A stretch of 64,000 nucleotides of DNA, from positions 34,593 to 98,592 of the forward strand of contig JAJCYM010000046.1 of the NCBI GenBank assembly GCA_029262895.1, written 5' to 3'. This document shows, piece by piece, positions 34,172 through 49,722 of this stretch. This DNA comes from Roseivirga sp. (GTDB lineage: Bacteria > Bacteroidota > Bacteroidia > Cytophagales > Cyclobacteriaceae). The position numbers and the translations under genes are program-made. Every line of letters starts with the position of its first letter. Position 1 is the stretch's first letter. Below the pieces are notes generated by a model. The model searched no databases. It was not told the DNA's origin and was given only the letters and a program-made list of their open reading frames with translations.

Positions 34172-35575
34172 ATGGGCAAATACAGGGGAAAGCAGAAGAT
34201 ACTTGAAAGAGTAAAAATCGATGGCATAGCTGCTGAGGGCAAGTGTATAGCACGTGTTGATGAGCAAGTGGTATTTGTCGAGAAAGTCGCTCCTGGAGAC
34301 GTTGTTGATATTCAGATCACCCGTAAGAAAAAGAACTTTCTGGAGGGCAGGCCTGTCCATTTTCATGAGTATTCAAAAGACCGAGTCGACCCATTCTGTC
34401 AGCATTTCGGACTTTGTGGTGGTTGCAAATGGCAGCATATCCCTTACGATATTCAATTGAAATACAAACACCAGCAAGTAGTTGATTGTCTGGAAAGAAT
34501 TGCGAAAGTAGAGCTGCCCGAAATCAATCAAATCCTTCCCTCTGCGCAAACCCAATTCTACCGCAACAAGTTGGAATACACCTTCTCCAATTGGAAATGG
34601 CTTACAAATGAAGAAATCAATTCAGGAGAAGAGCTGGATCGCAATGGGCTGGGCTTTCATATTCCCGGCCGTTTTGATAAAATATTAGATATCGAAAAAT
34701 GCTATCACCAACCAGATCCCTCCAACGCAATTCGAATTGCCACCAGAGACTTTTGCAAAGAAAATGAAATCCCCTTTTATGATTTGGTGAAGCAAACAGG
34801 AGTGATGAGAAATCTGATCATCCGGACCTCAAGTACAGGTGATTTAATGGTCATTGTACAATTTGCTAAGGAGCATGAAAAGAATGAGAACCTCCTTTCC
34901 TTCCTCAAATCAACCTTTCAGGAAATCACCTCATTACAATACGTCATTAATGGCAAAGGCAATGACACCTATAATGATTTGGAAGTAATCACCTTTCATG
35001 GTGAAGCCTACATCACCGAAAAAATGGAGGAAGTGCAATTTAGAATAGGGCCTAAATCCTTCTACCAAACCAACTCCGATCAAGCCTATGAACTTTATAA
35101 GGTGGCCAGGGATTTTGCCAAATTAAGCGGAACTGAAGTAGTTTATGACCTCTATACAGGTACAGGCACCATTGCCAATTTTATAGCAAAGGATGCTAAA
35201 CAGGTCGTAGGAATCGATTATATCGAGTCAGCCATTGAAGATGCCAGGGTTAACAGTCAAACCAATGGTCTGGATAACACGCTGTTTTATGCAGGTGATA
35301 TGAAAGACGTTTTGACAGAAGAGTTTATGGCCAAAAACACGCGGCCAGATTTAATCATTACCGATCCGCCAAGGGCTGGAATGCATGTTTCCGTTGTGGA
35401 TATGCTGCTGAGCATAACGGCTCCAAAAATTGTTTATATCAGTTGTAATCCGGCTACTCAGGCCAGGGATATCGCCATCTTGGATCAAAAATATAAAGTG
35501 ACCAGAGTTCAACCTGTTGATATGTTCCCTCAGACTCATCATGTGGAGAATGTGGTCTTGTTGGAGTTGAGATAG
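34172..35575 (+). CDS. rlmD: 23S rRNA (uracil-5-)-methyltransferase RlmD
   Basis: 467 residues of the TrmA/RlmCD superfamily. N-terminal TRAM domain (~8-65), an Fe-S cysteine cluster CQHFGLCGGCKWQH (~73-86), a SAM-binding core (VYDLYTGTGTIANF) and the catalytic TDPPRAGMH and YISCNPATQARD motifs with the nucleophilic Cys. It would make m5U in 23S rRNA (RlmD or RlmCD type). Its last 15 codons (35531-35575, QTHHVENVVLLELR) are echoed in three downstream intergenic repeats, marking this 3' end as a probable integration site. Confidence 0.93.
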   Translation: MGKYRGKQKILERVKIDGIAAEGKCIARVDEQVVFVEKVAPGDVVDIQITRKKKNFLEGRPVHFHEYSKDRVDPFCQHFGLCGGCKWQHIPYDIQLKYKHQQVVDCLERIAKVELPEINQILPSAQTQFYRNKLEYTFSNWKWLTNEEINSGEELDRNGLGFHIPGRFDKILDIEKCYHQPDPSNAIRIATRDFCKENEIPFYDLVKQTGVMRNLIIRTSSTGDLMVIVQFAKEHEKNENLLSFLKSTFQEITSLQYVINGKGNDTYNDLEVITFHGEAYITEKMEEVQFRIGPKSFYQTNSDQAYELYKVARDFAKLSGTEVVYDLYTGTGTIANFIAKDAKQVVGIDYIESAIEDARVNSQTNGLDNTLFYAGDMKDVLTEEFMAKNTRPDLIITDPPRAGMHVSVVDMLLSITAPKIVYISCNPATQARDIAILDQKYKVTRVQPVDMFPQTHHVENVVLLELR

Positions 35576-35739
35576 GAAAACGAACAAGAACGGGGACTTG
35601 AATACTGACCCATGGGCACTTGACAACATAAAATTCATCAAAGCCGAACCAGAGGGTTAAAGGACTTCGAGAGTCAACTTTAAACTCAGAAAGGCGTCCG
35701 GTTCTTTTGATGGGAAATACGTATACTATCAAAAGCCCA

Positions 35740-36300
35740 ATGAAACTCTATATCAAGTATATGGTTAGCCTGCGTTGCAAAATCCTTGTAAAGCAAGAAT
35801 TGGATAAGCTGAGCTTGAAACATGCCATTGTGGAATTGGGCACTGTGGAAATCCTTGGCAAATTTTCCAATGAACAACGCTCGTTGTTGAGAGCTAATTT
35901 GCTCAAATCCGGGCTGGAACTTCTGGATGATAAAAAGAGTATTCTCGTGGATAGAATCAAGAATGTAATCATTGAAATGATTCATTACTCTGAAGAAATA
36001 CCAAAGGTGAACTATTCAGATTACATCAGCGAGAAGTTGGATTACGACTACACCTATTTGGCAAACACCTTTTCAGATGTAAAGGGCATAACGATTCAAC
36101 AATTCATTATTCTGAATAAAATCGAAAAAGTAAAAGAGCTGATCTTGTATGATGAACTCAGCCTGTCTGAAATTTCTTATAAGCTTCACTATAGCAGTGC
36201 TGCTCATATGTCTAACCAGTTTAAGAAAATAACAGGCCTCACTCCCTCCTTCTATAAAAAGCTAAAGGAAAAAAGAAATTCCAATCTTGAGAATCTTTGA
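35740..36300 (+). CDS. AraC-type helix-turn-helix regulator
   Basis: 186 residues from ATG 35740 (MKLYIKYMVSLRCK, a start I recall in relatives; the frame is open to TTG 35707 and ATG 35710). The N-terminal ~75 residues form a small domain without a known name. The C-terminal ~100 are a two-HTH AraC DNA-binding domain (LSEISYKLHYSSAAHMSNQFKKITGLTPSFYKKLK). The target is unknown; it is the first gene behind rlmD in the proposed island. Confidence 0.85.
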   Translation: MKLYIKYMVSLRCKILVKQELDKLSLKHAIVELGTVEILGKFSNEQRSLLRANLLKSGLELLDDKKSILVDRIKNVIIEMIHYSEEIPKVNYSDYISEKLDYDYTYLANTFSDVKGITIQQFIILNKIEKVKELILYDELSLSEISYKLHYSSAAHMSNQFKKITGLTPSFYKKLKEKRNSNLENL

Positions 36301-36866
36301 TTAGCACCTCGTTTGTTGGTCTTTTTAACATATTAAAGGTCATTACGATGTTACTCAGATGTGGTCAAACTTGACCGATATAACACGAATCTGAGATAAA
36401 TCCAATGGCCAAAGTATGGGATATGTGTAAGTCTTAATGATGACGATATAAGTCATTTTGTACTCTAAAACTCACCTTGTTAGTTAATCCATGGAGCAGT
36501 TCAAACTCTAAAATCGAAGATATGTCAAAAGAAAAAAGCGGAAAGCCTAAATCAGGAAAGACTCCGCCAGCAAGAACCTTGAAAGAGAAGCGTGCTGCGA
36601 AAGCTGAAAAACGCAAAGAGAAATCAAGAGGATCTGAGATCTAATATTATTTGGTTAATTCTAAGGCCCATTGATTTCAGTGAATACGAAAGTTGAAGAT
36701 ATGTTTTGAGGTTGAAACGAATTCTTTGGGCTTATTTTTTTCTAAGATTAATTCATTAGCAATGAACCATTCTCAAACCCATGTACTTGGTCATTATCTA
36801 TGATTTATGTAAGACTTACTTACTGATGTGTAACACACCCTCAGCCCATAATAACCAGCTTTGAAG
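36301..36866. other. intergenic region, one possible small ORF
   Basis: 566 bp between the AraC gene and the next hypothetical gene. Apart from the candidate Lys-rich small ORF at 36522-36608, I see no RNA gene, strong hairpin or repeat. Confidence 0.5.
36522..36608 (+). CDS. candidate Lys-rich small protein, possibly frameshifted
   Basis: A 28-codon ORF (MSKEKSGKPKSGKTPPARTL then KEKRAAKS). It ends at TGA 36606-36608, right after an AAAA run at 36600-36603. Dropping one A from that run would continue the frame as KAEKRKEKSRGSEI to a stop at 36643-36645, keeping the same Lys/Arg/Glu-rich composition. It may be a small basic protein with a recent frameshift, or chance. Confidence 0.35.
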
Positions 36867-37211
36867 ATGGTCAAAAAACTCAGAATCATGAATACCCGAC
36901 AACACAAAATAGTGCACATCGAACAGAAAGAGCGTAATCCGATTTCGGCTAGACCGGAAACCAGCAAATCCCACCTCTTCGACAGACTAAACACAATCCT
37001 AGGCAATTATCACGAAGTTTTCGATGCCTGGAACCCTGCGGAGTCCAGAATTTTCACTTATCTGAAGACAGTATCTAATCGTTTAACGAAGCTGTTAAAA
37101 ATAAATAGGAAAGAGCTTTTGTTACTTCAATTGATTCCGATCGATGCAAATCAGGAAAGTGAGTTGATTGGTATCAGAGAATTGGAAGAGCATAGGGATG
37201 AACAGATTTAA
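36867..37211 (+). CDS. hypothetical protein
   Basis: 114 residues from ATG 36867 (TTG 36861 and ATG 36888 are alternatives). Soluble, mixed charge, with a helical C-terminal half (YLKTVSNRLTKLLKINRKELLLLQLIPI). No family recognised. It overlaps the following small gene by 14 bp, suggesting a coupled pair. Confidence 0.55.
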   Translation: MVKKLRIMNTRQHKIVHIEQKERNPISARPETSKSHLFDRLNTILGNYHEVFDAWNPAESRIFTYLKTVSNRLTKLLKINRKELLLLQLIPIDANQESELIGIRELEEHRDEQI

Positions 37212-37395
37212 ACCTAGTCTGGACAATAAGTTCAAGGAAGGAGAAATAGTTTATGCCAAAGAATGCCCTGCCATTCCCTTAATCATCAGGCGATATGTGC
37301 ACAGAATATATTATTGTAGAATCATAGATGATCCAGAAGATGACGAATTGGTCTATTATGAAAGAGAGCTCGTACAAGGGCTTAAAAAATCATAG
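37198..37395 (+). CDS. small conserved hypothetical protein
   Basis: 65 residues from ATG 37198 (MNRFKPSLDNKF). The sequence GEIVYAKECPAIPLIIRRYVHRIYYCRI looks like a small beta-barrel (SH3/KOW-like), followed by an acidic DDPEDDELVYYEREL tail. I recall similar short proteins in other Bacteroidota but no function. Its start lies within the end of the preceding gene. Confidence 0.6.
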   Translation: MNRFKPSLDNKFKEGEIVYAKECPAIPLIIRRYVHRIYYCRIIDDPEDDELVYYERELVQGLKKS

Positions 37396-37467
37396 CGGCT
37401 CTGCCAAAATCACCCTTTAGACCCAATATGGCCTAATTTTATGTGAGGTCATTAAAACAATTCAATT

Positions 37468-38538
37468 ATGGAATCAGAAGCATTAGTATATAGTGAAAAC
37501 GAGTTCGGGAAACTGGACGGGAAGGTGGCCAATGGGCTGATCAGACATTCGGAAAAATTCAAAATTGTTGGCGTAATAGATAGTACCAAAGCAGGCTTGG
37601 ATGCCGGAAAGTATTTGGATGGAGTCAAAAACGGGATTCCTGTTTTTCAGAACATATATGCGGCCATCGCCAATCTCAGAAGAGCTCCTGAGTATTTCAT
37701 TTATGGAATCGCTCCCCTAACACCCACTATTGGGGAAGAAGACAGGGAGGTGCTTTTTACTGCCATGAAAATGGGTATGCATTTAGTGAACGGACTTCCT
37801 GAGTTTTTGTCAGACGATCCTGAATTTGCAAAAATTGCCAAAGAGTTTGGTGTCAAAATCTACGATGTAAGAAAACCTCCGGCAAGAAAAAATTTACACT
37901 CCTTTTCAGGGAAAATCAGACAAGTGAAGACACCTGTTATTGCTGTTCTAGGAACAGACTGCGCTGTGGGGAAGAGAACCACGGCAGTGAAATTGGTAGA
38001 TGCTCTTCGAGCCGAAGGAATGAAAGTAGAATTTATAGCCACAGGTCAAACTGGCTTGCTGCAGGGAGCAAAATATGGGTTTGCCATAGATGTCCTCAGT
38101 TCGGGCTTTGCTACTGGTGCAGTTGAGAATGCCATTTTCTCAGCTTACGAACAAGAAGATCCGGACATAATTATTGTTGAAGGACAAGGTGCGCTCAGTC
38201 ATCCTGCATTTACTTCTTCTAGTGCTATCATCAGAGGAGCCATGCCCGATGCCATTATTTTGCAACATCCTCCAAAAAGAAAAACTCGTTGTGATTTCCC
38301 TGATTTCAAAATGCCAACGATCGCAAGTGAAATAGAGCTTTTAGAACTATTCTCGAAATCCAAAGTAATTGCCATTACGCTTAATCATGAAGACATGACA
38401 GATGCTGAATTGGATCTTGAGATTTTGCAATGTGAAGAGAACCACAAAATCCCAGTCACTGATGTACTGAAACAAGGCTGTGATAAGTTGGTTGCTGAAT
38501 TGTTACTCCTATTCCCACGCCCTTTGAGTGTAAAGTGA
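37468..38538 (+). CDS. DUF1611 family P-loop protein (DgcN-like)
   Basis: 356 residues. An N-terminal Rossmann-like domain (~1-135) is followed by a P-loop domain with Walker A-type GTDCAVGKRTT (162-172) and VEGQGALSHPAF. DUF1611 proteins include DgcN, described as an N-acetyltransferase of D-glutamate catabolism; others in the family are uncharacterised. Here it is the first gene of a tight operon with a PLP racemase (4-bp overlap) and a D-Ala-D-Ala dipeptidase, which points to D-amino acid metabolism. The exact reaction is not fixed by sequence. Confidence 0.85.
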   Translation: MESEALVYSENEFGKLDGKVANGLIRHSEKFKIVGVIDSTKAGLDAGKYLDGVKNGIPVFQNIYAAIANLRRAPEYFIYGIAPLTPTIGEEDREVLFTAMKMGMHLVNGLPEFLSDDPEFAKIAKEFGVKIYDVRKPPARKNLHSFSGKIRQVKTPVIAVLGTDCAVGKRTTAVKLVDALRAEGMKVEFIATGQTGLLQGAKYGFAIDVLSSGFATGAVENAIFSAYEQEDPDIIIVEGQGALSHPAFTSSSAIIRGAMPDAIILQHPPKRKTRCDFPDFKMPTIASEIELLELFSKSKVIAITLNHEDMTDAELDLEILQCEENHKIPVTDVLKQGCDKLVAELLLLFPRPLSVK

Positions 38539-39596
38539 CGAACCCAAGGATAGAAATCAATCTTAAAAAGATAGCCCATAATACAAAAACACTCGTGGAG
38601 CTCTATGGCTCAAAAGGCATTGCTGTTGTTGGTGTAACCAAAGCAGTCTGTGGTTATCCTGAAATTGCTTCAGTGTTAGTCGAAAACGGCATAACAACAC
38701 TTGGAGACTCCAGACTAAGCAACATCAGTCGCATGCAAAAAGCTGGAGTAAAGGCGCGATTCCTTTTACTAAGAAGTCCAATGCTAAGTCAAGCAGAGGA
38801 AGTAATCAATACCGCAGATTGCAGTCTTAATTCAGAGATCTCAGTGCTCAAATCACTTTCAAAATTTGCCTTGCAACTTGGTGTGATTCATTGTGTAATT
38901 CTGATGGTGGAATTGGGTGATTTAAGAGAGGGCCTTATGCCGGATAACCTGCATAAGACCATCGCTCAAATATTGGAATTAAAAGGGTTGGAACTTGTGG
39001 GGTTGGGAACCAATCTGGCTTGTATGGGAGGAATTATACCCGATGAAAGTAAGATGAACCAACTCTCCTCCATTGCCACCACCATTGAAGAGAAATTCGG
39101 AATAGTATTGAAAATTATTTCTGGTGGCAATTCTGCGAACTATCGCTGGTTTATGCATAATGCTGGTATTGGTCGGGTTAATAGTCTTAGGCTAGGTGAA
39201 TCTCTCCTGTTAGGTAGAGAAACCTTACATAGAAAACCCATTCCGGGCCTTTTTACTGATGCATTCACGCTTATCACCGAAGTTATAGAAGCCCAAATCA
39301 AACCTAGCCTTCCCTTTGGCGACACTGGTCAAAATGCCTTTGGAAATAAGCCTCTATTCGAGGACAAGGGCTTCATGAGAAGAGCACTTGTAGGAATTGG
39401 CCAGCAAGATGTTATGACCTCAGATCTAAAACCCCTATCAAATGTCGAGATTCTTTCCGCAAGCAGTGATCATGTGGCACTGAATGCCCGAGCGACAAAA
39501 TTAAAAGTAGGACAAGAAGTTAGGTTTGGCATAAACTACAGTGCCTTGCTTTCTCTTATGACCTCCCCATATGTTTCCAAATCAATAATAGAATAA
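38535..39596 (+). CDS. alanine/ornithine racemase-type PLP enzyme
   Basis: 353 residues, fold-type III PLP enzyme with N-terminal alanine-racemase barrel. The likely PLP lysine is Lys36 in VVGVTKAVCG, and ISGGNSANYRW is the phosphate-binding loop. It resembles the YhfX/ornithine-racemase branch rather than biosynthetic Alr. GTG at 38535 overlaps the DUF1611 stop (GTGA). Substrate uncertain: alanine, ornithine, glutamate or another amino acid. Confidence 0.87.
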   Translation: MTNPRIEINLKKIAHNTKTLVELYGSKGIAVVGVTKAVCGYPEIASVLVENGITTLGDSRLSNISRMQKAGVKARFLLLRSPMLSQAEEVINTADCSLNSEISVLKSLSKFALQLGVIHCVILMVELGDLREGLMPDNLHKTIAQILELKGLELVGLGTNLACMGGIIPDESKMNQLSSIATTIEEKFGIVLKIISGGNSANYRWFMHNAGIGRVNSLRLGESLLLGRETLHRKPIPGLFTDAFTLITEVIEAQIKPSLPFGDTGQNAFGNKPLFEDKGFMRRALVGIGQQDVMTSDLKPLSNVEILSASSDHVALNARATKLKVGQEVRFGINYSALLSLMTSPYVSKSIIE

Positions 39597-39600
39597 ACTG

Positions 39601-40278
39601 ATGAATGTAAAGGAATACTGTAACCATGTAGAAAGGCAAGACCTATTACACAAGCAATTAGAGTCAACCTTTCCCATTAGGGAAAATAACGAACGATTGG
39701 TTAGTCTGTTAGACTCAGGGTTCAACCTGATCTTCGAGCCTTCTGTGATGAAAGACTACAAATACCTGATTCGCAAGGCCTTGGTGGAAAGAATTGGTAG
39801 AATAAGCCAATCACTGGACAAACAAGGCAAGGCTTTGATTATTCGGTCGGCCTGGAGGTCTTTTGAGCATCAGCAGATATTGTGGAATAATAAGGTCCAA
39901 TTCCTTCAAATGGAGCATCCTGGGAAAACGCTCGAAGAAATACATGAGTTGGTGGCCTATTTCATTGCTCCTGAACAAAAGTCTACACACGCTACCGGAG
40001 GGGCTGTTGATGCACTGATTTACGATTTAAAAACAGAAAGTGTATTAGACTTCGGTACCAACAAAGGATATGACATAGACCTGACCGAGCGCTGTTATCC
40101 TCACCACCCAGATATCTCAGCTAAGGCCAGGGAAAACAGGAGATTGCTCATGGGGCTTTTTGAAAAAGAGGACTTCATGTGCGACCTCAAAGAGTATTGG
40201 CATTTTGATTATGGCAATGTTGGATGGGCGATTGAAAAGGGAAGACTTCATGCAATCTATGGTGTTGTTGGGCAGTAG
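39601..40278 (+). CDS. D-Ala-D-Ala dipeptidase (VanX-like, peptidase M15)
   Basis: 225 residues. The zinc site SxHxxGxAxD is seen as STHATGGAVD (His130, Asp137), with EYWH (Glu198, His201) supplying the base and third ligand; SAWRS (Arg86) matches the VanX/DdpX arginine. No signal peptide, so cytoplasmic, as for DdpX. It hydrolyses D-Ala-D-Ala-type dipeptides. Located 4 bp after the racemase, no vanA/vanH-like genes are present, so salvage rather than vancomycin resistance is inferred. Confidence 0.88.
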   Translation: MNVKEYCNHVERQDLLHKQLESTFPIRENNERLVSLLDSGFNLIFEPSVMKDYKYLIRKALVERIGRISQSLDKQGKALIIRSAWRSFEHQQILWNNKVQFLQMEHPGKTLEEIHELVAYFIAPEQKSTHATGGAVDALIYDLKTESVLDFGTNKGYDIDLTERCYPHHPDISAKARENRRLLMGLFEKEDFMCDLKEYWHFDYGNVGWAIEKGRLHAIYGVVGQ

Positions 40279-40907
40279 TAAAGAGGTATTCATATCCTAT
40301 GGCATTGCCATCTCTTGTATTAGCTGTAGAACTGGGAAAATACTTCTTAGAATTCAGATCTTTAAAACACCCTAGTATGATCGATTGTGCATAACCTTAC
40401 TTTTTCTCATTCATTTCATAGGTTTTTGAGATGAGAGATGGGAAGCATTTCCTATCTATTTCCAATTTGAGATGAGAAAACACTGAGAAGCTGACATGGT
40501 TTTGTCCGTTCTTTGTCCGCGCATAACCTGAAGTAGAAAAAAGCAGTCCATAAGCCACCTAATGAGAGTTTTTTAGCCAAACAAACATATCATGTGGAAT
40601 GCGTGATTTTGTTGGAGCTCAGAAGACAAATTTAATAACTTCTTAAAAATACTCTAACACCGGTATAGTATCAGCCCAAATATTATGGCTATACCTTTTC
40701 AGCTCTGGCATACGCCTGGTTTTAAGAAACTAACCATCGAATATGGTTATCACGGAACCATTAATTTGCTCTGTGATAACTGGAGATTAGAGCAGTATCA
40801 CCTAGCATTTTCAGGAAGCCTGTATATTGAACTGTTAGATTCAATTCACTATCCATAGTAGTATACAATGTTTAGCATATTTGCAAAACTACCCGATGTG
40901 GAAGATT
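40279..40907. other. intergenic region containing repeat R1
   Basis: 629 bp with no gene. Most is occupied by repeat R1 (40401-40850). The first 120 bp and last 55 bp show nothing recognisable. Confidence 0.6.
40401..40850 (+). repeat. repeat R1, with rlmD-like 3' tail
   Basis: About 450 bp, clearly similar along its whole length to R2 (42449-42890) and in its first ~190 bp to R3. It starts with the arm TTTTCTCAT (40402-40410), pairs with ATGAGAAAA (40472-40480), and has an inner hairpin at 40437-40456 (GATGGGAA-GCAT-TTCCTATC). At 40582-40635 it reads as coding relic QTYHVECVILLELRRQI-stop, the C-terminus of a TrmA/RlmD-type enzyme. Direct repeat orientation relative to rlmD. Confidence 0.75.
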
Positions 40908-41774
40908 TTATTTCTTCGTTTCTAATGCAACCTCATGATATGTTTTACCTTGATACATGCCCAATAAGTTAGAAATTGATTTCCTAGAAATAACCCGGAC
41001 AAACCAATCTCCCAGTCTAGGAGATATTGCATCTAGTAAAAGCAAAAATTTTGGTTGAAATGGAACAATGATCCTAGATTTATTTCTAAGTATGCCGCTT
41101 AATGCAGCTTCTGCTACCTTTTCAGGCGATATGGGGGTCATGGCCTTAAAAGCAGCTGGCATATCATCGGGATTGACGTGATTTAATAGAGCCGTTTGAG
41201 TCAGTGCAGGATGGATAATAGATATTCGGATGCCCGTATTCTTTAGTTCTTGTCTGAGGCTATCTGAAAAACCGGAAATCGCATGCATTACAGCGGAATA
41301 CGCACCAAAGCCAGCGAACGCTTTTCTACCTACTACGGAAGACATATTCAGAATATTTCCATATGCCTGCCGCTTCATTACCTTCAGCACCTCCTGGGTC
41401 ACATGGATCGTTCCCATTAGATCAAGATCAATCATTTCCTTTAAGTGCTCTTCATACCCAGAATCCATAAACTCACCCACATATGAAGCTCCGGCATTAT
41501 TAAATAGTATATCTATTTGCTGATGAGCTTGTATTACCTGATCGACCATAGCCTTAACCTGACTATTTGATTTGACATCCGCAGTGATCACCAGGGGTTT
41601 CAAACCTCCTTCATCTATGATTCTTGAGGCGACTTGTTGGAGTTTCTCTAATCTTCGTGCCACGAGTACTACTTTAGCTCCTTCTTTTGCGAAAGCCAAG
41701 GCAGAAGCTCTACCAATGCCACTTGAAGCACCGGTAACAATAATTACCTTCTGATTGAATTTTTTCGTTTTCAT
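40908..41774 (-). CDS. short-chain dehydrogenase/reductase lacking the catalytic lysine
   Basis: 288 residues. The NAD(P)-binding TGASSGIG is at ~14-21, NNAG at ~92-95 and Ser146 in NMSS. The active-site YxxxK reads Tyr159-S-A-V-Met163, i.e. Lys is replaced by Met (codon ATG), although the flanking HAISGFSDSLRQEL is normal. Thus catalysis may be lost or altered. A C-terminal extension (~225-288) suggests the DHRS7/YqjQ-like group. A 20-nt palindrome identical in core to that before the MarR gene lies 17 bp upstream of its start. Confidence 0.88.
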   Translation of the reverse strand: MKTKKFNQKVIIVTGASSGIGRASALAFAKEGAKVVLVARRLEKLQQVASRIIDEGGLKPLVITADVKSNSQVKAMVDQVIQAHQQIDILFNNAGASYVGEFMDSGYEEHLKEMIDLDLMGTIHVTQEVLKVMKRQAYGNILNMSSVVGRKAFAGFGAYSAVMHAISGFSDSLRQELKNTGIRISIIHPALTQTALLNHVNPDDMPAAFKAMTPISPEKVAEAALSGILRNKSRIIVPFQPKFLLLLDAISPRLGDWFVRVISRKSISNLLGMYQGKTYHEVALETKK

Positions 41775-41790
41775 AATTTCAAATGTTTCT

Positions 41791-41810
41791 CATGTTGTAT
41801 ATACAACATG
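41791..41810. promoter_or_regulatory. MarR-type operator upstream of the SDR gene
   Basis: Perfect 20-nt palindrome CATGTTGTATATACAACATG. Its 16-nt core TGTTGTATATACAACA is repeated exactly before the MarR gene at 42260-42275, so one regulator probably controls both. Confidence 0.88.
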
Positions 41811-41823
41811 ATATTAAAAATGA

Positions 41824-42249
41824 TTAAATGTCCAATAATCGTTTGTTAAGCATATAAACAGCTTTTTCACCATCCCTCCCAAGAAGCTCTTTTGTCCTTT
41901 TTTGTGCTTGTATCCACTTGGGGATTAATGCATTTAAAAAGGTTTTTCCAGTTTCAGTAACACCTACTTGTGGACTTACACCATCTTGGTCTTTGGCAAT
42001 GAAACCCTTCCTGATGAGACCATTCAACTCTCTGGTTACAGTAGATCTTTCCAATTGCAAACTTTTTCCTATCTGGCTTTGTCTTACCATCCCGTGCTTA
42101 CCAACAAATAGCAAAATAGATTGCTGACCAAATGAAATACCCAACTCTTTTGTATGCGCATTATACAACTGATTAAGCTTCCTGGTTGCCATCCTTAATC
42201 GAGAATTAAGGCATTCATCAGGATTTATTTCATCAATTAAATATTTCAT
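41824..42249 (-). CDS. MarR family transcriptional regulator
   Basis: 141 residues from ATG 42249 (MKYLIDEINPDE); the open frame extends to a TTG inside the operator, which is unlikely to be used. The winged HTH is QSQIGKSLQLERSTVTRELNGLIRKGFIAKDQD. Upstream palindrome 42260-42275 overlaps its promoter, indicating autoregulation, and the same core stands before the SDR gene. The ligand is unknown. Lies between repeats R1 and R2 with the SDR gene. Confidence 0.9.
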   Translation of the reverse strand: MKYLIDEINPDECLNSRLRMATRKLNQLYNAHTKELGISFGQQSILLFVGKHGMVRQSQIGKSLQLERSTVTRELNGLIRKGFIAKDQDGVSPQVGVTETGKTFLNALIPKWIQAQKRTKELLGRDGEKAVYMLNKRLLDI

Positions 42250-42259
42250 ATTCTTTTCA

Positions 42260-42275
42260 TGTTGTATATACAACA
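42260..42275. promoter_or_regulatory. MarR autoregulatory operator
   Basis: Perfect 16-nt palindrome TGTTGTATATACAACA, 10 bp before the marR-type start codon, identical to the core of the palindrome before the SDR gene. Confidence 0.88.
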
Positions 42276-42448
42276 AAAGAATACAAAAAAAGTTTCATCC
42301 TTGTCTGAAGAATTTTCAGTTTATAAAAAATCTAACAAATGATTTGAACGCATGCCTCAGGCTGCCAATTTGAAACTGAGGTGCAAACCCGCTATTTTAG
42401 AAGCTATTAAATTGGTCCAGAGGCACAGCGTCATATCTGACGTCACAG

Positions 42449-42890
42449 TTTTTTCTCATCCATTTCATAGTTCTTCAGAAGATTGGAAGCATTTCCCATC
42501 TATTTCCTTATTGAGATGAGAAAATAATGAGAAGCTAACATATTTGTGTTCGAATCTTGTTCGCGCATAAGCTCAGACAGAAAAAAGCAGCCTCTAAATT
42601 GTCTAGGGAAGTATTTTAATACCAAACAAACATGTCATGTGGAATGCGTGATTTTGCTGGAACTCAGAAGACAAATTTAATAACTTATTAAAAATGCTCT
42701 CACACCGTTATAGTTCCTCCCGATAGTATCGGGACTATAGCTTTTCAGCCCTGCAAAAGAAGGGTTTTAAGAAACTAACCATTGAATCTGATTATCACGG
42801 AGCCATTAATTTGCTCCAACCTCCGGTTATCAGAGTATAGCAAAATATTTTCCAGAAGACTGTATATTCAACTGTTGTCCGCCATTAAGA
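42449..42890 (+). repeat. repeat R2, with rlmD-like 3' tail
   Basis: About 440 bp, roughly four-fifths identical to R1 by eye. Outer arms TTTTCTCAT (42451-42459) / ATGAGAAAA (42516-42524); inner hairpin 42481-42500 (GATTGGAA-GCAT-TTCCCATC). The relic at 42627-42680 reads QTCHVECVILLELRRQI-stop, nearly the same as in R1. Unlike R1 it contains TCCCGATAGTATCGGGA (42719-42735), a small perfect hairpin. It ends 9 bp before the propeller lipoprotein gene. Confidence 0.75.
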
Positions 42891-42899
42891 AAGCCTAGA

Positions 42900-43973
42900 A
42901 TGAAGATAAAGTCAATTTGGTTTTACCCGCTATTGGTAGTTATAACTCTGAACTACTCATGTAGTAACCCAGGTTACAAAACTTCTAATTCTGCGTCCGA
43001 GACTAATAACATAGAAACCAAAATAGATACAAATCTTTGGTTAAAAGAAACTCGTGGAATTCGTGATATTTTAGAGGACAGCAAGGGAAATATTTGGTTT
43101 TCAAGTCCCGACTTTACAGCCAAGTTTGATGGAAAAACAATACATTATTTTTCCAAAGATAATGGGCCAAACATTGTCGCTAATATTCATGAAGATATAA
43201 ATGGAATAATTTGGATAGAAGACGGTTTCAAAATTTTTCGATACAATGGCAAGCATTTTATTGAAGATAAATTGAACAACAATTCAGTTTCAAAAGGGAA
43301 TCAAAATAGTCTTTGGGTTCAAAGAGGATTAAGCCCAACAGATACTTCGTATGTAGAGCCAGGCATTTATGAATTTAATCAGACAAGCGGGAAATTCTAT
43401 CGGTATCCCGTGAATAGAGATGACAACAATAAATATCTATATTTTCCTACCACCAAAGCTTATGTGGGCAAGGATAGTACTATCTGGGCTGGAACAATGG
43501 AGAAGGTTTTTGGATTAAGGAAAAACGCTTTCATTTCAATTGGTCGTGAAGAGATGCAACGTCAGAATGACTCTATACAAATGGGGATTCGTGGAATCTT
43601 TGTAGATAGCAAAGGTAAATTGTGGATTGCGGATAATGGAGCAGGAATCTTTGTCTATGATGGAGTAGAGGTTGAAAATTTCACCAAAAAACACAAATTA
43701 AATAAAAGTGATACTGAAGGAAATTCACTTCATAAAGCATTTTCGATTGCAGAAGATTCTTTGGGAAATATGTGGTTTGGCACGGTGTATTCCGGTATTT
43801 GGAGGTACAACCCCAAAACAGCCGAATTCAAGAATTACACGAAGGATGACGGTGTAAAGAGTGATAATATTTGGACTATTTACAGAACCAGCAAAGGTGA
43901 GTTGCTTTTTGGAGGTGAATCTCCAGCCGCAGTTTATAAGTTTAATGGAAAAGCATTTGACAGAATCCACTGA
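42900..43973 (+). CDS. lipoprotein with two-component-regulator-type propeller repeats
   Basis: 357 residues. Signal peptide with lipobox LNYSC (Cys21), then an Asn/Ser/Thr linker. Repeats of the Reg_prop type follow, e.g. GIRDILEDSKGNIWFSS, DINGIIWIED, GIFVDSKGKLWIADNGAG, SIAEDSLGNMWFGTVYSG and TIYRTSKGELLFGGES. These build a beta-propeller like the periplasmic sensor part of hybrid two-component systems, but no kinase domain is attached. Function unknown; surface or periplasmic ligand binding is inferred. Confidence 0.82.
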   Translation: MKIKSIWFYPLLVVITLNYSCSNPGYKTSNSASETNNIETKIDTNLWLKETRGIRDILEDSKGNIWFSSPDFTAKFDGKTIHYFSKDNGPNIVANIHEDINGIIWIEDGFKIFRYNGKHFIEDKLNNNSVSKGNQNSLWVQRGLSPTDTSYVEPGIYEFNQTSGKFYRYPVNRDDNNKYLYFPTTKAYVGKDSTIWAGTMEKVFGLRKNAFISIGREEMQRQNDSIQMGIRGIFVDSKGKLWIADNGAGIFVYDGVEVENFTKKHKLNKSDTEGNSLHKAFSIAEDSLGNMWFGTVYSGIWRYNPKTAEFKNYTKDDGVKSDNIWTIYRTSKGELLFGGESPAAVYKFNGKAFDRIH

Positions 43974-44017
43974 AATAAACGCACAACAATGTGCATTATA
44001 CATGAAGGATTTCAGGT

Positions 44018-44235
44018 TTTTCTCATTCATTTCCTAGTTTTTCAAAAGATGAGAAGCATTTCCCATCTTTTCCAGTTTGAGGTGAGAAAATGCTGAGAAA
44101 CGGACAGGCTCTTGTCTGTTCTTTATCCGAGACCTTGGGAAGATATCTAAAATTGCCTCCAGACACCACAAAAGCAGGTTTTATAGCTAACAAACATATC
44201 ATGTGGAGAATGTAGTTTTGTTGGAATTGAGGTGA
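44018..44235 (+). repeat. repeat R3, with intact rlmD-like 3' tail
   Basis: About 218 bp, matching the first half of R1/R2. Arms TTTTCTCAT (44019-44027) / GTGAGAAAA (44082-44090); inner hairpin 44048-44067 (GATGAGAA-GCAT-TTCCCATC). The tail 44191-44235 encodes QTYHVENVVLLELR-stop: 13 of 14 residues equal those of the rlmD end at 35531-35575, with 36 of 45 bases identical and most differences at third codon positions. Confidence 0.8.
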
Positions 44236-44448: not shown

Positions 44449-45252
44449 CTACTTATTTTTTCCGAGTAAAAATGTTTCAAAATTAGCCCTGTAGTTGCGG
44501 CTTCCTTTGAGTTCAGTCCCGTTAATCAATACCGCAGTAAAATCACCGCTAAACCCTGAGTTCATTTTTTCAATAGCGTTGATATTAATAATAAATGACC
44601 TGTGTATTCGCACAAAAAACGAAGGCTCACCTAATTGTTCCAAGGCCTTTAAACTATTATTCACAACATATACTTGTCCATTAGCCAGATGAATTTTTAC
44701 ATACGCATCGTAAGCCTCAAAATACAAGACATCGAAGAGGTTAAAAAAATGAACAGTCCCATTAGAACGGACAGCCACTCGACTCGATTTTTGAAAGCTT
44801 GTAATACCACTGCCTATAATCGAATTGTGCCCTTTCTCTCTTATTGACTCCAACAGTTCCTTTACCCGAGCACCACCAGACTGCTCAAAATATCGACTTT
44901 TAGCAAGTGAAATAGACTCTTGTAAGCGCTCATCTGTATAAGGTTTTAATAGATAGTCCAATGCATGGCAGTTGAACGCTTTAATAGCATACTCATCAAA
45001 TGCCGTAATGAAAATGACTAATGGCATTTTATCAGGGTCAATATTCAATAACACCTCAAATCCATCGATTTCAGGCATTTGAATATCCAGTAGAAGTAGG
45101 TCTACTTCATCATTTTGAATGTGCTCAATCGCCTCTAGGCCATTAGCGCAAACACTCACAATATCTAATTCAGCATCAGATTTTAGAGAATATTCGAGAC
45201 CATTTCTCGCCTCAATCTCATCATCTACAATAACTGTTCTAAGTCTCCTCAT
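44449..45252 (-). CDS. LytTR-type response regulator
   Basis: 267 residues. Receiver domain (~4-120) with Asp56 (LLLLDIQMPEIDGFEVL), acidic pocket VIVDDE and the Lys in YLLKPYTDERL. C-terminal LytTR DNA-binding domain (~165-262) with VLYFEAYDAYVKIHL and FVRIHRSFIININAIEKM. It overlaps the histidine kinase gene by 14 bp, its evident partner. Confidence 0.94.
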   Translation of the reverse strand: MRRLRTVIVDDEIEARNGLEYSLKSDAELDIVSVCANGLEAIEHIQNDEVDLLLLDIQMPEIDGFEVLLNIDPDKMPLVIFITAFDEYAIKAFNCHALDYLLKPYTDERLQESISLAKSRYFEQSGGARVKELLESIREKGHNSIIGSGITSFQKSSRVAVRSNGTVHFFNLFDVLYFEAYDAYVKIHLANGQVYVVNNSLKALEQLGEPSFFVRIHRSFIININAIEKMNSGFSGDFTAVLINGTELKGSRNYRANFETFLLGKNK

Positions 45253-46291
45253 AAATCAAGGGGATTTCTAATCTCAGTGATACATCTTCCAGGTCCTGGT
45301 TCATTTCCAGCTTAGCCTTGGCCCCATATATCTTAACCAATCGCTCACGCACATTTACCAGCCCTATTCCACCTTCATTAGATTGGGAATTTTGGTTTGC
45401 AAGTGGCAAACTATTACAAATTTCGATAACAAGGCTACTTTCTTCAATTGCCGTGTTGACCCTTATATACCCTTTTCCCAGGAATTTGGATATCCCATGC
45501 TTAACCGCATTTTCGACCAAAGGTTGAAGGATAAGACTAGGAAGCATTCGCTTTTTGCTGCCTTCGGAAATATTAAACTCAACTGTCAGCCTATCTTGAA
45601 ATCGGATCGTTTCTATTTCCAGATATTGCTTAACCAAGCTTAGCTCCTGTTCCAATGATATCATTTGTTTTTTTTCATTGAGCACATTGCGTAATAAAGA
45701 ACTCAGACCATGCAATGCCGCGATTGCCTGATCATTCTTGTGACGCCTCACCAATACAGTTATTGTATTGAGCGTATTGAACAAAAAATGTGGTTCTAAT
45801 TGAGCTCTTAAGGTTCTTAATTGAGCATTAGAAAGCTCCGCTTCCAATTCTGCGGCTAGTTTGGATTTATTGATATAACGTCTGTAGAAATCAAAAATCA
45901 GTAAGTAGCCAATAAAAACCCAGACGATAATAATGCTTTCAATAAAATATAGAGGCCGACTTCCAGTGATAAAGGTCAACCAGCCACCCTCCACTTGAGG
46001 GTCTGTGTACCATTGAAATGACAAGGCCCCGATGGTTCTGATTAAGCCTATACCGAGGCCCCAGAGTGCTAGGATTATTAAACCATTCTTTATTTTAAGA
46101 TCGAAGACTTTCTCGGAGATCCTGATCATGGGAAATGTGAAAATCAGCCACAATACTATCCCAGGGATATAGAAGTATAAAATCAGGTTTTCATCCTTCT
46201 CCCAAATAGACTTCTTGAAGAGATCCAGTACTATAAAAAGTATCCAGAAGGCAAAAGCTAGTCTTATTTTTGATCTCACTTGGTCCGTCAA
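45239..46291 (-). CDS. LytS/YehU-family sensor histidine kinase
   Basis: 350 residues. Four membrane segments in the first ~135 residues. The His_kinase domain has the phospho-acceptor LRAQLEPHFLFNTLNTI, and the ATPase has ENAVKHGI (N-box) and GGIGLVNVRERL. It autophosphorylates and passes phosphate to the downstream LytTR regulator. Its start overlaps the DUF2911 gene by 4 bp, so all three form one operon. Confidence 0.93.
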   Translation of the reverse strand: MTDQVRSKIRLAFAFWILFIVLDLFKKSIWEKDENLILYFYIPGIVLWLIFTFPMIRISEKVFDLKIKNGLIILALWGLGIGLIRTIGALSFQWYTDPQVEGGWLTFITGSRPLYFIESIIIVWVFIGYLLIFDFYRRYINKSKLAAELEAELSNAQLRTLRAQLEPHFLFNTLNTITVLVRRHKNDQAIAALHGLSSLLRNVLNEKKQMISLEQELSLVKQYLEIETIRFQDRLTVEFNISEGSKKRMLPSLILQPLVENAVKHGISKFLGKGYIRVNTAIEESSLVIEICNSLPLANQNSQSNEGGIGLVNVRERLVKIYGAKAKLEMNQDLEDVSLRLEIPLIYEET

Positions 46292-47421
46292 TTATACTCT
46301 TTTTCCAAAAGTGCAATTCGTTGATTCATGCTTCGTTTCAAACCCTCCACTCCGGTATTGTCCCGAGCCATTCCATAATACTTGATTGCCAATTTAATAT
46401 CATCTTTGGAGCGATTTGGTTGAGATTCATAAAACTGACCGATCGCAAACATCGGAAAGGCCGCATCTGGATCAATTTCTCTTGCCTTCTCAAGGGCAGC
46501 CAATCCTCCCTTGCGGTTTACATTGAGTTTTGGCCCCATCAGCTCAAATCCATAATTTACTAAATCACCTGCCTTCGCGTTGTCGAATGCTTCTTTTTTT
46601 AAATTATCTGCCTCTATTACTTGCCCTAATTTTCTCTGAATACCAGACTCCGTCATTAAGTGAGTGAAAGATCGGTCATTCCTTCTTGCTCTTTGGCTCC
46701 AGGTCAATGCTTCATCCAAATTAACTTCATGCAACAGGCAAAACTGGGCAGCTTGGTTATAGGCTACTATATTACGCATTGATTGTCCCTTAAGTTCTTT
46801 CCTTAAAGTTTCCACTACTGTTGAACTCACATCAACTTCAATGGGAATTTGAATTTTGGTAGTACCCCAAACCAATGTCAAATTCACGCTATCATATCTC
46901 GGAGTTTCAAAAGAATAATTAAGCCAATTTTCGGCTTGAGGCACCTCAGAAGATCGAACTTCCGTGCGTAGCAGATCATTGTTTTGATCATAAAAGAAGG
47001 CTCCCCAATCAGAATTCGATTTGGATAAAATTATGGTCCAATATTCCTCCTGAGGAATCATGAATACTCCATAGACCCCAGCCGGCACTAATTTTCCATT
47101 TAGTTTGACTGAATGAGAGAAGGATATTGTGGTATTTTCATTGGCACCTGCCCGCCAAACCTGACCATAAGGAGATAGAGAACTGGCTCCCGAGAACTGG
47201 TCACGTCCATATATTCCAGGCCGATGATATTTAAGTCTTATCTCCGTAACCCCTATCGTTTGACTGACTGAGGCTGCTTGACTAATTCTAGGTAAGGTCA
47301 GACTTGAATTAGATGGTGCAACTAGGTTAGCTGGAACATTTGGAAGCTCATCTTTCTCTTGTCCGGTTGAGTTAAAATAGATGAGAAACAGGAAGAGTGG
47401 CAGTAGAATTTTTTTCATCAC
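46288..47421 (-). CDS. secreted DUF2911 protein with C-terminal TPR-like region
   Basis: 377 residues with a signal peptide (~1-20, FNSTGQ). The DUF2911 domain (~40-200) shows PRISQAASVSQTIGVTEIRL, YGQVWRAGANENT and GVYGVFMIPQEEYWTIILSK. The C-terminal ~150 residues are helical with tetratricopeptide character (AAFPMFAIGQFYESQPN, AIKYYGMARDN). Function unknown. It leads the LytS-LytTR operon, so it may be a periplasmic partner of the sensor. Confidence 0.85.
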   Translation of the reverse strand: MMKKILLPLFLFLIYFNSTGQEKDELPNVPANLVAPSNSSLTLPRISQAASVSQTIGVTEIRLKYHRPGIYGRDQFSGASSLSPYGQVWRAGANENTTISFSHSVKLNGKLVPAGVYGVFMIPQEEYWTIILSKSNSDWGAFFYDQNNDLLRTEVRSSEVPQAENWLNYSFETPRYDSVNLTLVWGTTKIQIPIEVDVSSTVVETLRKELKGQSMRNIVAYNQAAQFCLLHEVNLDEALTWSQRARRNDRSFTHLMTESGIQRKLGQVIEADNLKKEAFDNAKAGDLVNYGFELMGPKLNVNRKGGLAALEKAREIDPDAAFPMFAIGQFYESQPNRSKDDIKLAIKYYGMARDNTGVEGLKRSMNQRIALLEKEYN

Positions 47422-48544: not shown

Positions 48545-48568
48545 TTAAAGAACTTGTATATTCAGCGG

Positions 48569-48970
48569 ATGCCTAAATCGAAAACCTACTTCGAACAGCA
48601 AGTGGATAAAATTTCCAAAGAGGTCTTTCAGCCTAAGTATTATTATATACAGGCAAGACAGTCGAAGGCATTCATGGAGGAGAACCTATCGGAGAAGATC
48701 GAACTGAACCGGATTGCTGCTGCAGCCTTTATGTCGCGTTTTCATTATATCCGGATTTTTAAACAAGTATATGGAGTTACTCCCAGGGAATACTTAAAGG
48801 GTCTTCGAATCAATAAGGCCAAAGAACTTCTCAAACAAGGGTTGTCGGTCACCCAAGTCTGCTTTGATGTTGGTTATGAAAGCCTGCCTACCTTCTCCAA
48901 TGCCTTCAAGAAAGGAACGGGCCATTCGCCAAGCGCCTATCAGGAATTAAACAAAAGCAATCAAGAATAA
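48569..48970 (+). CDS. AraC-family regulator, DNA-binding domain only
   Basis: 133 residues from ATG 48569 (a TTG at 48554 is in frame). It consists of a short N-terminal segment and a double-HTH AraC domain (~35-125): LNRIAAAAFMSRFHYIRIFKQVYGVTPREYL and SVTQVCFDVGYESLPTFSNAFKKGTGHSP. No sensing domain. Lies 53 bp before a VOC gene that it may control. Confidence 0.88.
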   Translation: MPKSKTYFEQQVDKISKEVFQPKYYYIQARQSKAFMEENLSEKIELNRIAAAAFMSRFHYIRIFKQVYGVTPREYLKGLRINKAKELLKQGLSVTQVCFDVGYESLPTFSNAFKKGTGHSPSAYQELNKSNQE

Positions 48971-49023
48971 GTAAGGTGACGAATAAACAGAGAGGTTTGG
49001 TCTAAACAAAAACTTTTAGAAAA

Positions 49024-49413
49024 ATGATAAGGATTAGCGTAACCAGTGTGATGGTGGATGATCAAGACAAAGCATTGCAATTTTACACCGAAAAATTGGG
49101 TTTCATCGAAAAAACCAACATACCCATGGGAGAGCACAAGTGGCTCACGGTTGTTTCTCCCAAAGAACAAAATGGCGTGGAGCTCCTGCTCGAACCGCTG
49201 GGTTTCGAACCGGCAAAGGTGTTTCAAAAGGCATGTAAAGATGCAGGTATGCCCTATACCATGTTTGAAGTAGAGGATGTTGAAAAAGAGTACGATCGCC
49301 TTAAGGGACTTGGTGTAGAATTTTCTGTTGAGCCCAAAGAAGCCGGAACGGTGATGTTTGCAGTATTAGACGATACCTGCGGCAACAATATCCAACTCGT
49401 GCAAACATTGTAG
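49024..49413 (+). CDS. VOC family (glyoxalase/bleomycin-resistance fold) protein
   Basis: 129 residues forming one VOC unit pair: SVMVDDQDKALQFYTEKLGF and VFAVLDDTCGNNIQL-type end (MFAVLDDTCGNNIQLVQTL). Metal ligands are not clear, the usual first His being absent, so enzymatic activity is uncertain. Context with AraC and an SRPBCC relic is that of small-molecule detoxification clusters. Confidence 0.85.
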   Translation: MIRISVTSVMVDDQDKALQFYTEKLGFIEKTNIPMGEHKWLTVVSPKEQNGVELLLEPLGFEPAKVFQKACKDAGMPYTMFEVEDVEKEYDRLKGLGVEFSVEPKEAGTVMFAVLDDTCGNNIQLVQTL

Positions 49414-49429
49414 ACTGATAGATCGTTTA

Positions 49430-49454
49430 TGTCTATATTTGCTAAATATAGACA
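49430..49454. promoter_or_regulatory. operator palindrome of the parDE operon
   Basis: Perfect 11-bp arms TGTCTATATTT (49430-49440) and AAATATAGACA (49444-49454) around GCT. It stands 34 bp before the antitoxin start, the normal place for ParD-ParE autoregulation. Confidence 0.82.
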
Positions 49455-49488
49455 TATTTGTTATATTAATTATTTAAGGAAGAAAGCT

Positions 49489-49722
49489 ATGAATGTCAGT
49501 TTGACCAATAAACAAGAGAATTATATAGCATCCCAAATTGAGGCGGGGGACTACCAAAATGCGAGTGAGCTTGTGCGTGATGCCCTGCGCCTTCATCAGG
49601 TTTACCGCGACAAGGTGCTCAATGAGCTTCGCATGGAGATTGAGAAAGGCTGGGAAGCGCCAGCCAGTGGCCGAAGTGTTCAGGATATTGTCAAAGCCAA
49701 AACGGAAGAAAGAAAGCATTAA
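49489..49722 (+). CDS. parD: ParD-type antitoxin
   Basis: 77 residues from ATG 49489, preceded by AGGAAGAAA. The open frame reaches back to an ATG at 49429, but that lies in the operator palindrome. N-terminal ribbon-helix-helix (MNVSLTNKQENYIASQIEAGDYQNASELVRDALR, split here only for reading) binds DNA; the C-terminal tail should wrap the toxin. Stop TAA and toxin ATG share one base (TAATG). Confidence 0.92.
   Translation: MNVSLTNKQENYIASQIEAGDYQNASELVRDALRLHQVYRDKVLNELRMEIEKGWEAPASGRSVQDIVKAKTEERKH

Follow-up and report, generated by a model that had tools for sequence, protein, structure and literature searches.

Gene modules stacked behind rlmD in Roseivirga sp. point to a docking site for a cassette family at the 3' end of the gene

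Organization of the rlmD locus

The window, that is, the whole 64,000-nucleotide stretch of Roseivirga sp. DNA analysed here, carries the rRNA methylase gene rlmD, recognized by Pfam and by alignment to the solved relatives SP_1029 and RumA, and immediately behind it three small gene modules, each closed by a conserved right block followed by a copy of the rlmD tail. Over this region the following features were assigned:

34172-35575, + strand: rlmD
final 11 codons of rlmD: insertion core, HVENVVLLELR
35531-35575, + strand: tail 0, the present rlmD 3' end
35576-40398, + strand: cargo region of module A
35707-36300, + strand: AraC-type regulator, module A
36861-37211, + strand: 116-aa ORF, module A
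37468-38538, + strand: DUF1611 protein, module A
38535-39596, + strand: Ala_racemase_N protein, module A
39601-40278, + strand: M15/VanY-like peptidase, module A
40399-40581, + strand: right block of module A (profile match, 193 bits)
40582-40635, + strand: displaced tail 1, opening module B
40636-40876, + strand: left leader of module B
40908-41774, - strand: short-chain dehydrogenase, module B (Pfam)
41824-42276, - strand: MarR-type regulator, module B (Pfam)
42448-42626, + strand: right block of module B (profile match, 174 bits)
42627-42680, + strand: displaced tail 2, opening module C
42681-42876, + strand: left leader of module C
42900-43973, + strand: Reg_prop propeller protein, module C (Pfam; lipoprotein-like start judged from the N-terminal letters)
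44015-44190, + strand: right block of module C (profile match, 169 bits)
44191-44235, + strand: displaced tail 3
48554-49413, + strand: AraC2 and VOC genes, ancestral flank (directly after rlmD in two same-genus genomes)

The original prediction, made by reading the same DNA, held that four rlmD tails lie at 35531-35575, 40582-40635, 42627-42680 and 44191-44235, and all four are present. That they are not chance resemblances was also borne out: a degenerate core pattern allowing up to three mismatches matched four times in the window, while 100 shuffles averaged 0.00 matches; across all 5.79 Mb of the genome it matched at these four places and nowhere else, and the reversed pattern did not match at all. 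The cores are thus restricted to the rlmD region rather than spread genome-wide. The further claim that nearly all changes among the tails are synonymous holds for the last tail (QTYHVENVVLLELR) and fails for the two middle tails, in which HVECVI replaces HVENVV and the end is longer. In the alignment to solved relatives, fpqthhvenv of RlmD pairs with fpqthhvetv of SP_1029.

The modules had been described as devoid of a visible integrase, and Pfam scans agree: none of the eight module ORFs scanned contains an integrase or relaxase domain, and the contig of the window gives no match to PF00589. Nor did the window show a remnant of an int gene. Every module ends in an attR-like structure of the kind found at the right end of two integrase-bearing elements discussed below (genomes G141 and G196), and in none of them was a left arm detected beside the core. 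The leaders of modules B and C, which occupy some 200 nt after the tails, are 75% alike over 204 nt; elsewhere in the genus this leader returned a single 30-nt match, in G281.

A conserved site of about 235 nt

The repeat proved to be far longer than the tail on which the original prediction had focused, as conservation extends about 190 nt to the 5' side of every displaced tail. The site that terminates each of the three modules is therefore about 235 nt long and comprises a right block of about 190 nt and the rlmD core, the two being conserved jointly in 25 aligned sites. Block and tail of module A are 80% identical to those of module B over 242 nt and 75% identical to those of module C over 222 nt, and repeats within one array are about 75-82% alike where compared. 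In module A the right block contains TTTCTCAT/GATGAGAAA-type motifs, followed by TTTGTCCG at 40501-40508 and 40512-40519, with an 11-bp spacing.

Folding of the site as a single strand, in the manner of integron attC sites, was considered and rejected: the consensus fold of the 25 sites contains 0 pairs, and among 10 sites folded singly the z-scores ranged from -2.6 to 0.1 except for one (locus L127, -6.1) that folded far better than its shuffles. Sigma-70 promoter-like sites were scarcer than in shuffled sequence (20 vs 25.0), and terminator-like sites occurred at about the shuffle level (8 vs 6.4).

Empty sites and distribution among relatives

Empty rlmD sites, which the original prediction proposed to seek in relatives, exist within the same genus and carry no copy of the 235-nt repeat. 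In G209 and G236, the AraC2 and VOC genes that lie 13 kb away in the window directly follow rlmD (AraC2/VOC amino-acid identity in loci L198 and L199, 73-75% and 86%), and in G057 AKR-SixA-HslU genes begin about 60 nt after rlmD, the same genes lying beyond a displaced tail in locus L005.

A profile built from the site (R1; strong match, 75 bits or more; up to five candidates scored per genome) gave strong matches in 26 of 390 genomes of the family, that of the window included, and in 11 of its 84 genera, as well as in one genome of another family, likewise behind rlmD. At least 55 matches among those listed reach 75 bits, some of them covering the model incompletely. Where a strong match shares a contig with an identified rlmD, it lies downstream of the gene and on its strand in 31 of 32 cases. 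The exception, a G042 site on the strand opposite to rlmD, counts against the explanation we favour, as do strong sites on contigs that lack rlmD in genomes that carry the gene elsewhere (contig C30 of G016 and C138 of G243). Comparison of the region downstream of rlmD revealed that other genera possess different modules bounded by the same sites, and stretches beside the sites are shared between genera at 84% identity over 2,622 nt and 91% over 1,121 nt. Most of the tests laid down in the original prediction thus support its central proposal of an island at the rlmD 3' end, built of modules bounded by rlmD tails. One might still regard the repeats as ordinary regulatory or intergenic repeats that fell between genes by chance, and their intergenic position agrees with that notion, nothing further; we consider it refuted, as the repeats terminate in the rlmD 3' end, lie mostly behind rlmD on its strand (31 of 32), are missing from empty sites and are common to an integrase-bearing element.

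Site conservation also declines with distance from rlmD (37 concordant vs 13 discordant pairs in nine arrays; permutation p = 0.005). This test compared R1 bit scores in arrays with at least two sites on the rlmD contig, weak and partial sites included, and left out G072, which has no rlmD at E <= 1e-60, and arrays on contigs lacking rlmD. Among plasmids, one right block and the integrase protein found no match, and IMG/VR held no match to two exact site patterns.

Elements carrying an integrase, and the left arm

A tyrosine recombinase beside the same core, which the original prediction proposed to look for, was found at rlmD in four genomes (G252, G141, G196 and G042), where one recombinase type directly follows the rlmD tail and a left arm. 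The same right block recurs 24 kb (G141) and 45 kb (G196) further on and gives elements of these sizes; the G196 right end scored 155 bits and lay outside the profile's training set. Behind rlmD, G196 encodes the tyrosine recombinase, a TraG/TraD-like coupling protein and a TrwC relaxase (Pfam), and G141 has the integrase with ORFs of the same size in the same order, including one that equals the TrwC relaxase gene in size. With integrase, relaxase and a specific site, both elements fit the definition of an integrative mobilizable element (IME) and, judged by gene content, are predicted to be mobilizable. Their right blocks nest among cassette blocks in a tree. Two findings weigh against our favoured explanation: the rlmD-type integrase was not found in the window's own genome (E <= 1e-20), and at the same threshold it occurred in only 5 of 390 family genomes, with up to four candidates scored per genome.

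The idea of a universal left arm was considered and rejected. Among 64 cores, 13 have a clear arm (12 of these were training members of the arm model; L178 was not), six a weak or partial one and 45 none; by the array map at least 20 of the 45 stand at the head of a module closed by another site, and among the rest are distal cores with plain chromosome behind them.

These counts bear on an alternative that we judge somewhat unlikely, namely, that the modules are CIMEs, decayed remains of full rlmD-targeting elements from which deletions stripped the left arm along with the integrase and transfer genes while cargo and right end stayed, so that the small modules do not themselves move. It is the standard account of tandem islands in the portions of PMC5704250 and PMC7563491 that bear on them, and it draws support from partial left arms that persist in loci L132 and L134 and from a weak, stop-interrupted integrase-like fragment that scores under the family cut-off and lies beside a site on contig C15 of G252. 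Against it stand the preponderance of armless cores, many of which open closed modules, and a tblastn search with the G252 integrase over a subset of array loci, which returned no remnant except a 32% match at the Dysgonomonas locus L045. Additionally, an armless, integrase-less 1.2-kb module with its boundary at the core is common to two species, for which decay alone is insufficient. A split integrase in G242 was discarded as a sign of decay, its halves lying on two contigs, as an assembly break explains.

A cassette shared by two species

The module in question is an epimerase cassette, with neither left arm nor integrase, shared by two species of the same genus (G192 and G270). Their rlmD genes are 69-83% identical per 100-nt bin, identity is 98-100% from just after the start of the core through the 1.2-kb cassette, and the modules that follow are unrelated. 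The left boundary at the core implies that each arrival overwrites the last 11-12 rlmD codons and displaces the old end downstream. By the same boundary, tail 0 of the window, from CATGTGG onward, probably arrived together with module A. On the right, the shared stretch stops inside the right block, about 130 nt short of the displaced core, which fits recombination between blocks and not a clean core exchange, and so counts against the favoured explanation.

That right boundary within the repeat, together with the 75-82% likeness of repeats in one array, is what commends a further alternative, in which site-specific recombination only founded the array and shuffling proceeded mainly by RecA-dependent homologous recombination that exchanges the 235-nt direct repeats among arrays after DNA uptake. 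We think this improbable, since the left boundary falls at the rlmD core, a place with no block in an otherwise divergent rlmD, and since conservation declines away from rlmD as growth at rlmD predicts.

The operon of module A fits less well. G270 has it, in the same gene order, 1.2 kb beyond its third site, and no further site follows; in G192 the DUF1611 gene belonging to it sits on a different contig. Both observations count against the favoured explanation. For this operon alone the G270 arrangement leans toward what the original prediction named as refuting, that is, the same gene order without rlmD tails. The idea that module A is a cassette merely swapped between the window and G270 was not upheld by the comparison.

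Proposed mechanism

We propose that a gene cassette family docks at the 3' end of rlmD, with serial insertion by a tyrosine recombinase acting in trans the probable route. Accretion at rlmD is well supported; action of the recombinase in trans and present mobility of the integrase-less cassettes are what we infer. The unit would be a short cargo closed by a single site of right block and core. Such units, presumably as circular intermediates, would be inserted one by one at rlmD by a recombinase that an IME using the same site supplies and that may act on cassettes lacking a left arm. Crossover is predicted within CATGTGGA, and the TTTGTCCG and TTTCYCATC repeats are putative arm-type binding sites. 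The newest unit would adjoin rlmD, and displaced tail 3 would be the oldest rlmD end kept in the window, as the polarity test among other evidence suggests.

Relation to known systems

On our best reading, the nearest kind is the tandem CIME/IME accretion island, from which the rlmD arrays differ in their one-armed cassettes, integrase-free stacks and spread over genera. As portions of PMC5704250 and PMC7563491 describe them, CIME/IME/ICE islands, mostly of Streptococcus, line up integrase-less and transfer-less modules behind a single housekeeping gene, at its 3' end, and grow by serial insertion there; the classical CIMEs carry cargo and span 1.2-13 kb, and in an S. salivarius survey composites had two or three elements and CIMEs were detectable only beside an ICE or IME. 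To the extent of these descriptions, the window modules are alike in lacking integrase and transfer genes and in their tandem position at a housekeeping gene 3' end, with serial insertion beside it as the proposed origin, whereas rlmD arrays of three to six modules exist in genomes without a detected rlmD-type integrase. The rlmD modules also mostly lack a left arm, and one site family covers 11 genera and a genome of another family.

Two other systems share part of the pattern. Streptococcal ICEs in rumA, according to part of PMC4701971, use serine integrases and, on insertion, alter the frame in which the gene end is read; the kind of target gene is the same, but the rlmD arrays are linked to a tyrosine recombinase and the rlmD reading frame is kept. 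SGI1-type islands, in the sections of PMC5704250 and PMC8409611 concerned, insert at the 3' end of thdF/trmE, also an RNA-modification gene, and form tandem arrays of up to six copies in transconjugants; the rlmD arrays likewise stand in tandem at such a gene end, yet consist of different small cargoes rather than copies of one large island.

A comparison with integrons is also instructive. Their cassettes are small one- or two-gene units with a single downstream recombination site, stacked at an anchor, and integrase-less arrays exist. The rlmD units are likewise small, with one downstream site each, in an anchored stack, and the array lacks an integrase. Unlike attC, their site has no conserved fold; the anchor is an rRNA methylase gene end that is rewritten, without intI or attI and on a contig where PF00589 finds no match; and the recombinase linked to the site is that of an element which also carries a gene for a TrwC-type relaxase. 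A more far-reaching reading, possible but in our estimate doubtful, is an integron-unrelated system of free small cassettes with a single double-stranded, one-armed site, which would be captured at rlmD, rewrite its last dozen codons and, through a recombinase that a passing mobilizable element provides in trans, be shared among genera of the family and beyond it.

Implications

Literature searches of open-licence PMC papers surfaced no rlmD arrays of this kind. If the proposal is true, they represent a second route to tidy anchored gene arrays, beside integrons, and they permit a direct test of integrase-less module movement. The docking site falls in codons of the conserved HVE stretch of RlmD, whose glutamate acts catalytically in RumA; a broad host range would be explained because a site in these codons cannot easily mutate away. 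The cargo of elements with the site includes an AbiE toxin-antitoxin pair, a Fic protein, an EcoRII-type restriction system, a TOTE-type primase-helicase, regulators and enzymes, and rlmD arrays are therefore a place to seek defence genes.

Gene modules at the 3' end of rlmD

Accretion at the 3' end of rlmD is established: the island behind the gene is built of units that share one common site. In the window, three modules succeed rlmD, and a copy of the rlmD end (a displaced tail) terminates each of them:

34172-35575, plus strand: rlmD
35576-40635: module A; AraC regulator, small ORF, DUF1611 protein, Ala_racemase_N protein, M15 peptidase
40636-42680: module B; SDR and MarR genes, both on the minus strand
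42681-44235: module C; propeller protein

The pattern of the core, i.e. the last 11-12 codons of rlmD, occurs four times in the window against 0.00 expected (100 shuffles), and a search for genome-wide spread (5.79 Mb, up to three mismatches allowed) confined it to these four copies. The original prediction of modules delimited by rlmD 3'-end copies, in an island built up at rlmD, was supported.

Several features of the modules are recorded separately. Within module B, two near-identical palindromic 25-mers with a TTGTATATACAA core (41787-41811, 42257-42281) precede the genes for SDR and MarR and are likely MarR operators. Modules B and C share a leader of about 200 nt (40636-40876, 42681-42876), matched elsewhere in the 19 genus genomes searched only by 30 nt of genome G281. 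The AraC/DUF1611/Ala_racemase_N/M15 operon of module A also lies past the array in G270 (locus L184, 101-5280), and its DUF1611 gene is found in G192 (contig C11) away from the array of that genome.

Architecture of the repeated site

The first relative with the same arrangement was a Cytophagia MAG (L005; rlmD 76% identical), whose alignment with the window revealed about 190 nt common to the displaced tails on their upstream side. The tail copies first described are real, and the repeat exceeds the tail by this conserved right block. Across further genomes, the block begins with motifs of the TTTCTCATC and GATGAGAAA types, each orientation being represented, and continues with two TTTGTCCG repeats at 11-bp spacing, a variable stretch and then AGCCAAACAAACATAT, followed by the core, CATGTGGAATGCGTG... 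As no conserved fold of the site (right block plus core, ~235 nt) was found, we infer that the right block is a set of putative protein-binding sites.

Distribution among genomes

The core pattern (at most two mismatches) is present in 56 of 390 family genomes, with two to four copies in several. A sequence-only site profile built from 25 sites (R1) matched 76 of the 390 at E <= 0.001, many of these matches being bare rlmD ends; at 75 bits or more, where matches comprise the full site or large parts of it, the count was at least 55, from 11 genera and 26 genomes (the window's own among them), larger arrays being undercounted because at most five candidates were scored per genome. At the order level, 5 of 380 genomes (same-family genomes among them) matched at E <= 1e-10, including one outside the family (G416) with its site 6 kb behind rlmD.

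On contigs where rlmD was identified, either by tblastn or as a long frame that terminates in the tail, 31 of 32 strong matches lie downstream of rlmD on the same strand, the exception being G042:C32. The remaining 24 are on contigs without identified rlmD, one of them 487 kb long (G016:C30), and reflect either assembly breaks or a truly different location. Strong sites on three such contigs, L126 (G016:C30), G243:C138 and L195 (G281:C77), possibly represent secondary locations or moved arrays; in G281, a search at E <= 1e-60 found no rlmD on any contig. In G290:C155 (L124, 10990), a core with left arm (the stretch following the core in some units) lies within a short frame other than rlmD; a right block follows 10 kb further along, and this core is a possible secondary insertion site. 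G042 carries, on a different contig from its rlmD and shortly ahead of a partial right block, a stretch of ~450 nt that shares 92% identity with part of that gene (L128, 12714-13164).

A tree of 48 right blocks requires 24 genus-label changes (minimum 11; shuffles, mean 32 and least 27), suggesting partly inheritance within genera and partly exchange.

Integrase-bearing elements and a possible mechanism

The tyrosine recombinase gene sought by the original prediction was found directly behind rlmD in four relatives (G252, G141, G196, G042), with frames of 459-498 aa and PF00589 plus PF13102 in the G252 copy; a copy split across two contigs in G242 brings the total to 5 of 390 family genomes. 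At least 14 relatives of this recombinase were obtained at E <= 1e-30 among 7,998 database candidates scored, 13 at 78-100% identity and one at 46%, the three named ones coming from Reichenbachiella and Cyclobacteriaceae. The left arm lies between rlmD and the integrase and contains the same TTTGTCCG repeat as the right block, which itself recurs 24 kb (G141) and 45 kb (G196) downstream. In the G196 element, a TrwC relaxase is encoded alongside a TraG/TraD-like coupling protein. The G141 element has equally sized ORFs and, deeper inside, also carries SSB, Toprim, EcoRII-type restriction with a C5 methylase, and a second integrase. On a Dysgonomonas contig (L045, 13657-14127), 2.3 kb behind rlmD, lies a distant integrase-like match (32% over 177 aa) that perhaps marks another family of rlmD-linked elements.

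A PF00589 scan of the array contigs in the window's own genome and in G192, G118, G299, G185, G243, G275, G060, G059 and G239 gave no match. The simplest mechanism would be that the rlmD-type integrase carries out site-specific recombination in trans during passage of an integrase-bearing element.

Kinds of units and the origin of one-armed modules

Among 64 cores, the left arm is clear behind 13 (12 of which trained the arm model, L178 being independent), weak or partial behind 6 and missing behind 45; of this last group, at least 20 cores open a module and others are distal. The window modules are one-armed, i.e. have the site without left arm. Behind nine of the clear left arms we found the integrase (four) or an AbiEi gene (five: G243, G275, G154, G090, G060). 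Pfam identifies AbiEii next to it in G243, G154 and G090; G275 has a 300-aa ORF in its place, and no ORF of AbiEii size was seen after AbiEi in G060. G016 has an AbiEi/AbiEii pair behind a core with no left arm detected. AbiEi recurs at the left end of rlmD-site elements in six genomes of five genera (L120, L121, L127, L178, L191, L115), four with AbiEii by Pfam (L120, L127, L178, L191), in the manner of stabilising modules. Cargo in the sampled one-armed units includes regulators as well as a UvrA-like ABC protein, a Gln_deamidase_2 protein and a member of the Beta-lactamase family.

As the main alternative to recombination in trans, the units would be decayed elements (cis-mobilizable elements, CIMEs). 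Accretion of CIMEs and integrative mobilizable elements is the nearest known kind (PMC5704250, PMC7563491); the window modules, which lack the left arm of an attL, are possible members. A cassette common to G192 and G270, two genomes from the same genus as the window, counts against decay as a full account, albeit as a single pair. Both genomes have the same first cassette, an NAD-dependent epimerase (285 aa), 98-100% identical throughout, whereas their rlmD genes are 69-83% identical per 100 nt (95% in the junction bin) and their next modules are unrelated. The left boundary is exactly CATGTGG, and therefore the last 12 rlmD codons, now reading HVECSILLQLRK, arrived with the cassette. The right boundary falls within the right block, ahead of the TTTGTCCG repeats, and may reflect later exchange between blocks or a property of the reaction. 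Single-site cassettes laid out behind an anchor also recall integrons, but membership in that class fails on fold and integrase, there being no conserved site fold and no PF00589 on the window contig.

Empty sites and order of insertion

Empty rlmD sites, whose existence was to be checked, occur in two genomes of the same genus (G209, G236), where the AraC2-VOC pair found at 48554-49413 in the window directly follows rlmD, and also in G057, where AKR-SixA-HslU directly follows rlmD; in L005 these genes come after the displaced tail. About 13 kb separate rlmD from AraC2 in the window, of which modules A-C make up 8.7 kb. Between module C and AraC2, 44449-47421 encodes a LytTR regulator, a histidine kinase and, by eye, DUF2911/TPR-like genes; neither the G209 nor the G236 stretch (13.5 kb each) contains a match to these, no recognisable site or right block bounds them, and they are perhaps an older insert. 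Just beyond the ancestral flank lies a ParD/ParE-like gene pair, recognised by eye (49429-50024).

Across nine arrays, site conservation is higher nearer rlmD (37 concordant vs 13 discordant pairs, p = 0.005; p 0.0016-0.024 with any one array omitted), a gradient consistent with growth at rlmD.
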